Positions 45,372-46,866 of a DNA stretch of 64,000 nt are shown one piece after another (the first letter of the stretch is position 1; each line of letters begins with the position of its first letter). The position numbers and the translations under genes were made by a program. Where the stretch lies: assembly GCF_009827055.1 (NCBI RefSeq), contig NZ_WUMK01000004.1, forward strand, positions 1 through 64,000. Direction: 5' to 3'. The notes beneath the pieces are model-generated. The model made no database searches and was not told the DNA's origin. It saw only the letters and a program-made list of their open reading frames with translations. This stretch comes from Shinella kummerowiae. GTDB taxonomy: Bacteria; Pseudomonadota; Alphaproteobacteria; Rhizobiales; Rhizobiaceae.

Positions 45372-45383
45372 TGTGCAGTGCAA
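45372..45383 (-). promoter_or_regulatory. Shared promoter element upstream of DUF1127 copy 1
   Basis: On the minus strand the 12-mer TTGCACTGCACA is followed, 12 bases on, by GGGC and then a TATA-type -10 (GTATATAG). The same 12-mer, at the same distance from a GGGC-TATA, occurs at 46592-46603. The identical spacing suggests a common promoter type. Confidence 0.6.
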
Positions 45384-45565
45384 AGAAAATGCAGCTGCTA
45401 TGCATTTGTGCAATAAGATGATTAACGCGCAGGCATCTGGTCCCACTGAGGGCAGGAAGGCAGAAAGTGCCGATATTCCGGGCAGATAGGTTGATTGCCG
45501 CCGGAAATCATTTCTGCCTTGGAGGAGGGGTGCGACATTGTGCGCCGCAAAACACCGGCAAACGA

Positions 45566-45598
45566 AAACGCCCTCCGGTGGGAAGCCGGAGGGCGTTT
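45566..45598 (-). terminator. Rho-independent terminator of the second DUF1127 gene
   Basis: AAACGCCCTCCGG pairs with CCGGAGGGCGTTT around seven bases, 27 bases beyond the DUF1127 stop on the minus strand. Confidence 0.8.
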
Positions 45599-45625
45599 GA
45601 AAATGGATCCCGTGGGATCGTTGGC

Positions 45626-45769
45626 TTAGATCGAAGCCTTGCGAGCGATGTACGGGATATCGCTGCGGCCGATGCCGAGGTCGCGGAGTTCACGGTCCGA
45701 CATACGGCCGAGTTCGTTGACGGTCTGACGGTACTTGCGCCAGTTGTTAAAAGAGCGTGCCAGGTTCAT
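45626..45769 (-). CDS. DUF1127 domain mini-protein (47 aa), copy 2
   Basis: ATG 45769 (MNLARSFNNWRKYRQTVNEL) leads into GRMSDRELRDLGIGRSDIPY and ends IARKASI. This is the typical DUF1127 sequence with L-R-D-L-G-I-x-R-x-D-I, and it is clearly paralogous to the copy at 45150. AAAGGGG lies upstream. In Rhodobacter a DUF1127 gene is co-transcribed with CcsR RNAs; here two RNA units lie directly upstream on the same strand, but a terminator hairpin (46009-46040) separates them. Confidence 0.88.
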   Translation of the reverse strand: MNLARSFNNWRKYRQTVNELGRMSDRELRDLGIGRSDIPYIARKASI

Positions 45770-46000
45770 GTCATTACCCCTTTCTTGGGCTTCCTACTGG
45801 GCGGCCGCTCGTCCTTGGCGCCGCCCCGATCTGATGGTTTGAAATATACGCTGCATTGCCGAAAAGAACAGCGCTGTTACGGCACGGCACCTATGCGATT
45901 TATGCATGTCAAGCGGAAATTTTGGCAAAATTCTGGCCAAAACCCGGGCGATTCGCCACAAAGGTAAAGATCGCCATGCGCGACTGGATGGGTGCGGTGC

Positions 46001-46127
46001 AAAAAGAAACGCCCACCGGGGGAGGAGATCCGGTGGGCGTTGCTGATGTCGATTGGCAACCTGGGAGGAGGAGTGGCTGCCAATCCTGTCGGGGACGTTA
46101 GGAGGAGGAGATCGTCGCCCGACTGAT
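46001..46127 (-). ncRNA. CcsR/cuckoo-type small RNA, unit A (three anti-SD hairpins)
   Basis: Read on the minus strand there are three stem-loops in order. 46123-46088 has an imperfect GTCGGGCGACG stem; 46085-46051 has GATTGGCA / TGCCAATC; 46040-46009 has an 11-bp GC stem followed by GTTTCTTTTT, so it is also a terminator. Every loop contains CTCCTCCC or CTCCTCCTCC, complementary to AGGAGG ribosome sites. A GGGCTATATAC at about 46133-46143 is a good -10 for a start near 46127. Repeated CCUCCUCCC hairpins beside DUF1127 genes match the CcsR/cuckoo RNA family. Its relatives act post-transcriptionally in stress responses. Confidence 0.72.
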
Positions 46128-46299
46128 GATGTGTATATAGCCCGGCAGGGCGTCGCGCAGAAGAGCTGGATATGAATGGCACCCATGCACGAGGCGCATG
46201 CTTCTCACGCCGGGCATGAGGGTCTGCGCAAACTTTAAGCCGATTGGAAAAGGGGCCGGGGGCTTTTCGCCTTTGGCGGAGCAATGCCATGCATTCCGC

Positions 46300-46430
46300 G
46301 CAAATAATAACGCCCGCTGGGGGAGGAGGTCCAGCGGGCGTCACTAAAGATGATTGGCAACTGGGAGGAGGAGTGTTGCCAATCGTATCGAAGCGGCGCT
46401 GGGAGGAGGAGTGCGACGCTTCGAATTCTA
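46300..46430 (-). ncRNA. CcsR/cuckoo-type small RNA, unit B (three anti-SD hairpins)
   Basis: This is a paralogous copy of the unit at 46001. Hairpins on the minus strand are 46424-46388 (TCGAAGCG / CGCTTCGA with an inner stem), 46384-46352 (10-bp GATTGGCAAC / GTTGCCAATC) and 46341-46310 (11-bp ACGCCCGCTGG / CCAGCGGGCGT, then TTATTATTTG, a weaker terminator). Loops again show CTCCTCCTCCCA. The middle and last stems are almost the same as in unit A. The only promoter-like element I see is far upstream (46571-46603), so the transcript may be longer than marked. Confidence 0.7.
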
Positions 46431-46866
46431 TGTCGAACCCCGTTTCCGGGGTATCGGGTCTTTGGCATCATGCCGGGCGCTCGACCAGTCCGCCCTCCCG
46501 TTCGTCTGTCGCCGTACGTTACGCGGCGCCTTGATTTCCGGGCCGGATCGCTTCTGATCCGATGACTGCACTATAGCCCATTCCCGGTTTTTGTGCAGTG
46601 CAATATGAGCATGGATGATATGCGTCAGATGCATGCTGCAGATCGGGAGGGCAATCGGTGCCTGCAGGCTAAATATGCCGAGGATTTCTTTATATCCTGT
46701 TAATCTTGTTGCTGGTCACGCCAGATTTAAAAAATCCCCGCGAGAAATTGCTCATTTTTCGGGATTTCGCTCCAATTGCGAATTTCCTGGCAAGCTATAT
46801 CGTCCTTGTTGACGGAACGAGAATCGGTTGAACGCCGGCGCAATTTTTCGAACGGAGCGGGAATGA
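46425..46866. other. Upstream region of RNA unit B and of the DUF2157 gene
   Basis: About 440 bases without a supported protein gene. It contains a small CCCC-GTTTC-GGGG type hairpin (46438-46451), the shared promoter element at 46571-46603, and an AT-rich part (46670-46800) that probably carries the DUF2157 promoter on the plus strand. Confidence 0.45.
46571..46603 (-). promoter_or_regulatory. Promoter-like element upstream of RNA unit B
   Basis: The minus strand reads TTGCACTGCACA (46603-46592), 12 bases, GGGC, then CTATAG at 46576-46571. It is the same 12-mer and spacing as upstream of DUF1127 copy 1. A transcript from here would run ~260 bases through unit B. Confidence 0.55.

Follow-up and report, generated by a model that had tools for sequence, protein, structure and literature searches.

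The window analysed here is a stretch of 64,000 nt belonging to contig C33 of a 6.34-Mb genome. Its minus strand carries a row of elements that, in the order of transcription, comprises two small RNA units (B and A), two short genes coding for DUF1127 proteins (DUF1127-1 and DUF1127-2) and a gene for a GIDA-domain protein, which we take to be TrmFO. The features of the locus, listed in that order, are as follows:

46620–46633, minus strand: TGCA-N6-GCAT box in the B promoter, spanning roughly −69 to −56 relative to the predicted start; found in 20/22 promoters, and in 22/22 in the form with TGCR
46592–46603, minus strand: TTGCACTGCACA at the −35 position of B; an exact site, of which the genome has two
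46571–46576, minus strand: putative −10-like element of B, CTATAG
46430–46564, minus strand: predicted 5′ leader of B, about 135 nt
46305–46429, minus strand: αr14 unit B; RF02344, 124.7 bits; fold z −10.3; covariation, 20 distinct orthologues
46178–46198, minus strand: LsrB/VtlR-type box TGCGCCTCGTGCATGGGTGCC of the A promoter, from about −71; an exact site, of which the genome has three
46135–46140, minus strand: putative −10-like element of A, CTATAT, 13 nt before the unit
46004–46127, minus strand: αr14 unit A; RF02344, 94 bits; fold z −7.6; 92.3 bits with model R1 (B orthologues only)
45886–45906, minus strand: LsrB/VtlR-type box of the DUF1127-1 promoter; exact genome site; consensus in 21/22
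45626–45769, minus strand: DUF1127-1, 47 aa; PF06568, E 4.6e-18
45372–45383, minus strand: TTGCACTGCACA in the DUF1127-2 promoter; the other exact site in the genome
45150–45293, minus strand: DUF1127-2, 47 aa; PF06568, E 1.9e-14
45054–43582, minus strand: GIDA-domain gene, the last of the minus-strand row

Open reading frames overlap the units on both strands, and a protein-coding reading was considered and rejected: leader insertions and deletions among relatives disrupt the reading frame, as judged by eye, and the covariation of the stems fits an RNA. A further hairpin is located 3′ of DUF1127-1 (45563–45611, minus strand); its stem resembles that of the third hairpin of A, its loop differs, and it scores 16.8 bits with model R1.

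Comparison with Rfam, the check that the original prediction had called for, demonstrated that both units are αr14 small RNAs (ar14, RF02344), an already known family with NfeR1 of Sinorhizobium meliloti as its founder. B and A match the model at positions 1–123 of 123 with 124.7 and 94 bits, respectively, the gathering cut-off being 58.8. The αr14 loops read CCUCCUCCC, an anti-Shine–Dalgarno (anti-SD) motif, and there are three hairpins per RNA. The six minus-strand stem-loops that had been predicted all fold where they had been placed, at 46424–46388, 46384–46352 and 46346–46305 in B and at 46123–46088, 46085–46051 and 46044–46005 in A. The minimum free energies of −59.1 kcal/mol for B (z −10.3) and −58.6 kcal/mol for A (z −7.6) were equalled by 0 of 200 shuffles in each case. 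Both units display three hairpins with an unpaired anti-SD motif. That motif had been expected to be common to all six loops; CTCCTCCC is indeed present in five of them, but the first hairpin of A reads CTCCTCCTCCT, where the final C is replaced by T. In the window, CTCCTCCC is not rare (five occurrences versus 2.4 expected, a number reached by 9 of 100 shuffles), and the longer TCCTCCTCC occurs five times, four of them inside A and B, against 0.46 expected and with 0 of 100 shuffles reaching that count. The claim that each unit ends in a hairpin followed by T-rich sequence holds clearly for A (TTTCTTTTT) but weakly for B (TTATTATTT). Neither third hairpin was listed by a terminator scan, because the loop limit of the scan is 8 and these loops have 10 bases. 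Over 127 aligned positions the two units agree at 94, which fits an origin by duplication.

The collection of related copies made it possible to compare loops and stems. A covariance model, R1, built on 21 orthologues of B, gave 73 matches over 52 loci, of which four were weak (24–27 bits) and 69 were αr14 units (21 training rows, 17 A-type, 22 C-type and 9 others). In 63 distinct copies, with the four weak rows left out, the 36 loop columns showed a mean conservation of 1.81 bits versus 1.26 bits for the 71 stem columns, and a gap as large appeared in 0 of 20,000 column permutations, a count that ignores the kinship of the copies. Loop changes as frequent as stem changes, the pattern that the original prediction had named as speaking against itself, were looked for and not found. 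The stems, for their part, change with compensation. In the all-copy alignment, which was fitted to the structure and includes the four weak rows, 94.3% of the stem cells are paired and double changes occur in 32 of 37 pairs, against 22.8 in shuffles and 8–13 in slid controls. The unfitted alignment of B has 96.9% of its stem cells paired and double changes in 6 of 37 pairs versus 3.3 in shuffles (8 of 500 as high); further pair types, one of five measures, were not above the shuffles in this alignment (241 of 500 as high). Covariation of the stems is strong across copies and more modest within the unfitted B alignment. The combination of a conserved loop and variable stems that characterises αr14 is present here, and the view that selection holds the loops is supported.

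The host genome contains four ar14 copies. Among 41 genomes searched, 33 gave a match at E ≤ 0.001 and 26 a match above the cut-off, the latter comprising 21/21 genomes of the genus, 4/4 of other genera of the family and 1/16 of other families of the order (any match in 8/16). At the level of the class, at least 15 of 385 sampled genomes had an ar14 match and, among the matches listed (the best eight candidates per genome), only the host genome was above the cut-off. B is present in 21/21 genus genomes and stands in tandem with A in 17 of them, the two being more than 1 kb apart in G001; A is absent from the matches listed for G006, G007, G008 and G019, where a search with R1 near B did not find it either. 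The tandem also occurs in one genome of another genus (G023), and the proposed duplication is supported as old enough to be present in 17/21 genus genomes and in this one. Three consecutive ar14 units occur in Rhizobium subbaraonis and in R. rhizolycopersici.

The proximity to DUF1127 genes noted in the original prediction is borne out by the PF06568 matches in the window and by the presence of DUF1127 genes 3′ of B, on the same strand, in 21/21 genus genomes. In the host genome, three of the six DUF1127 genes found lie less than 1 kb from an ar14 copy; under independent random placement the chance of this would be about 3e-8, a figure that is only rough because two of the three genes adjoin each other. 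One of these copies (C5:36779–36903) represents the C-type, a class defined by its position 3′ of a DUF1127 gene, at a distance of 250–262 nt, with 22 copies in 21/21 genomes. C-type copies and their orthologues appear, by eye, to have a fourth anti-SD hairpin before the Rfam match (CGAAGC...CCTCCTCCC...GCTTCG). Linkage is not universal, since 12 of 38 listed ar14 copies, including the C3 copy of the host genome, have no DUF1127 in the stretch examined. Among 14 other genomes of the class with weak ar14 matches, DUF1127 was found in the fetched stretch in three and not in 11. In those three, the weak match lies behind DUF1127 and the stretch contains eight, six and four CTCCTCCC motifs; these loci are perhaps of the type described as the CIN1 locus, which links CcsR-like RNAs with DUF1127 (PMC10253847). 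In a small genome from another family of the order (G031), three weak ar14 matches lie scattered among four DUF1127 genes. The literature search returned no paper joining DUF1127 with NfeR1, SmelC397 or Smr14C2, the founding αr14, cuckoo and 2017 NfeR1 papers lying outside that search.

Analysis of the upstream regions indicated that A and B differ in their promoters. The promoter of NfeR1, as published, combines an LsrB-type box near −70 with CTTAGAC-N17-CTATAT; its LsrB site is TGCA-N6-GCAT at −72 to −60 (PMC10746234), and the LsrB consensus has been given as GCAT-N3-TG-N3-T (PMC8844928). About 71 nt before A there is a TGCR-N6-GCAT that continues into GGGTGCCATTC; it lies at about −71 to −58, taking the start of the unit as the start of the transcript, and fits the NfeR1 site up to one base. 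The consensus GCAT-N3-TG-N3-T is found in the promoters of A (18/18), C (21/22), DUF1127-1 (21/22) and the DUF1127 gene of the C locus (22/22), against 0/22 for B, 0/21 for DUF1127-2, 3/12 for other copies and 0.3 to 0.6 in shuffles; the form GCATRGSTGS is present in 1/21 DUF1127-2 promoters. The longer pattern TGC-N7-GCAT-N-GGTGCC matches exactly at three places genome-wide, before A, before DUF1127-1 and at C33:378089, and with one mismatch at 31 places versus 10 for a reversed control, one of the 31 being before the DUF1127 gene of the C locus. In R. subbaraonis and R. rhizolycopersici, each of the two A-like units is preceded at about 60 nt by an LsrB-type box, a sign that promoter and RNA could have been copied together; R. 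rhizolycopersici has none before DUF1127-1. The exact NfeR1 core promoter combined with the loop motif gave 0 matches in 297 genomes of the family, the published −35 being unmatched exactly, and a sigma-70 scan yielded two sites versus 1.1 by chance, no excess.

The promoter of B shares a different element with DUF1127-2. Across the 6.34 Mb of the genome only two exact copies of TTGCACTGCACA occur, in the B and DUF1127-2 promoters, and its reversed control has none. The form TTGCACTGCA was found in 21/22 promoters of B, 20/21 of DUF1127-2 and 1/22 of DUF1127-1, and in none of A, C, the other copies or the C-locus DUF1127 gene. In 13 species records, several of which are the same strains as the genus genomes and therefore not independent, it precedes B in 13/13 and DUF1127-2 in 10 of the 11 records with two DUF1127 genes, the one exception being Mycoplana dimorpha. 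Each RNA thus appears, from these motif counts, to share a promoter element with one DUF1127 gene. Read as a PhaR site, the TTGCACTGCACA site is TGCACTGCACAA, which matches the published PhaR consensus TGCRNYGCASMA (PMC6201568) at 12/12 positions. Sites with the full consensus lie upstream of 2/3 phasin-domain matches and 0/1 phaR match in the host genome. Because this consensus is loose, with three sites in the 64-kb window, PhaR is put forward as a hypothetical regulator of B. LsrB may also control B, because TGCA-N6-GCAT is kept in 20/22 of its promoters. The 5′ leader of B is predicted to measure about 135 nt because the −10-like element stands 147 nt before the unit in the host; G002 and G005 have it at 35 nt, and a loose pattern found no such element in 5/22 promoters. 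In G002 and G005 most of the leader is missing. An alignment of 19 leaders gave a weak consensus structure, with double changes in 8/27 pairs and a small covariation term. A 279-nt leader acting by attenuation has been described for a DUF1127 gene of S. meliloti (PMC12218461).

Beyond the family, structure, loop constraint, synteny and promoter motifs of A and B, which were observed here, we infer their transcription, the identity of their regulators and their mode of action. The best explanation, in which we place good confidence, is that A and B are separately transcribed, trans-acting αr14 RNAs whose loops block ribosome-binding sites, A under LsrB and B under a second signal. Each RNA would be made from its own minus-strand promoter and would end at the third hairpin. 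Translation of several mRNAs would be blocked by pairing of the CCUCCUCCC loops with their purine-rich ribosome-binding sites, and the three loops would be redundant, as for NfeR1. The LysR-type regulator LsrB/VtlR would activate A jointly with DUF1127-1, and B would answer the second signal via TTGCACTGCACA jointly with DUF1127-2. The best reading by analogy is that A and B act like NfeR1, whose loops were shown experimentally in S. meliloti to silence mRNAs including ntrB, and which LsrB activates and NtrC represses (PMC10746234); the pairing of the loops with ribosome sites that had been proposed for this locus is likewise supported from the αr14 family. A role of ntrB as a target of A or B is not supported here, the host ntrB start being GGAGAGG and its unbroken complementarity to the loops only short; because that start offers only GGAGAGG, targets other than ntrB seem more likely. 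It should be considered that A or B may be silent, because only one of the six NfeR1 copies of S. meliloti is reliably visible by Northern blot (PMC7143759).

Control of an anti-SD RNA and of DUF1127 genes by a single regulator has precedents, since LsrB/VtlR activates abcR1, vrsA and atu1667 in A. tumefaciens (PMC7486931) and AbcR2 together with three DUF1127 genes, two of them orthologous to atu1667, in Brucella (PMC12595884). Reports on S. meliloti conflict: one sees no effect of LsrB on the AbcR RNAs, whereas another describes co-activation of AbcR1 and NfeR1 by LsrB (PMC10746234). A more speculative reading, tentative and on balance doubtful, is that the locus holds two matched RNA–protein pairs, A with DUF1127-1 under LsrB/VtlR and B with DUF1127-2 under a second regulator at TTGCACTGCACA, possibly PhaR, and that the DUF1127 proteins might act on the RNAs as CcaF1 does on CcsR. 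NfeR1 is independent of Hfq, and its authors leave open whether any protein assists it (PMC10746234); the role of DUF1127 is disputed between RNA binding and protein binding (PMC12501420). If the paired reading were true, redox and carbon signals would be joined to translation control, and the conserved sharing of promoter elements between RNAs and DUF1127 genes puts a joint function within direct reach of experiment. What is new here is the proposed co-regulation with DUF1127 genes as promoter-matched partners; the linkage itself may already be printed in the founding αr14, cuckoo or 2017 NfeR1 papers.

Other explanations of the locus have to be weighed against separate transcription. A and B could be parts of one CcsR-like precursor that reads into DUF1127 and is cut by RNase E, a possibility that draws on the common strand and order of B, A, DUF1127-1 and DUF1127-2 and on a DUF1127–sRNA linkage such as that of CIN1 (PMC10253847). 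This is improbable, given that each of the four genes has a conserved promoter element of its own, strong hairpins end A and B, the two units are more than 1 kb apart in G001, and R. subbaraonis and R. rhizolycopersici carry an additional A-like unit preceded by an LsrB-type box of its own. Still less likely is that the hairpins serve mostly as terminators or are silent paralogues that a duplication left behind: all three loops are held while the stems change with compensation, the promoter boxes are conserved and the tandem persists in 17/21 genus genomes, despite the terminator-like third hairpins and the single reliably visible NfeR1 locus among the six of S. meliloti. The loops might also act on the ribosome overall, for instance in competition with the 16S anti-SD, with no chosen mRNAs. 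Anti-SD loops mimic the 3′ end of 16S rRNA, and up to six of them are available at this locus; we regard such an action as the least likely of all, NfeR1 being known to silence particular mRNAs in a loop-dependent manner (PMC10746234).

A and B, read as separately transcribed αr14 RNAs, resemble NfeR1 and its family in their length (about 123–125 nt), three hairpins, anti-SD loops, variable stems, a TGCA-N6-GCAT type box placed near −70 by the predicted starts, and several copies per genome. The CcsR RNAs of the cuckoo family have loops of the CCUCC type. The original prediction of a rhizobial CcsR/cuckoo member in six copies was right about the cuckoo link, because the αr14 authors cite the cuckoo paper for these hairpins, but three anti-SD hairpins per RNA are the αr14 norm (PMC10746234), and the six stem-loops are two copies of catalogued αr14 and not a new CcsR-type member. 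With CcsR1–4/CcaF1 (DUF1127) and the CIN1 locus they share the presence of repeated small RNAs adjoining a DUF1127 gene. In Rhodobacter sphaeroides, however, the CcsR RNAs are processed out of the 3′ UTR of the DUF1127 mRNA (PMC8625941, PMC10253847), behind DUF1127 in one transcript from an RpoHI/RpoHII promoter, whereas here the order and the promoter elements place the RNAs in front, with separate promoter elements. AbcR1 and AbcR2 (αr15) are likewise tandem anti-SD small RNAs, and several species are reported to place AbcR1 or AbcR2 under LsrB/VtlR control; they differ in having two anti-SD motifs, binding Hfq, belonging to another sequence family and adjoining lsrB. Compared with NfeR1 itself, the locus described here appears to differ in that two units stand in tandem before two DUF1127 genes, that a 5′ leader is predicted for B, whose promoter element is also a different one, and that pairing with ntrB is unsupported.
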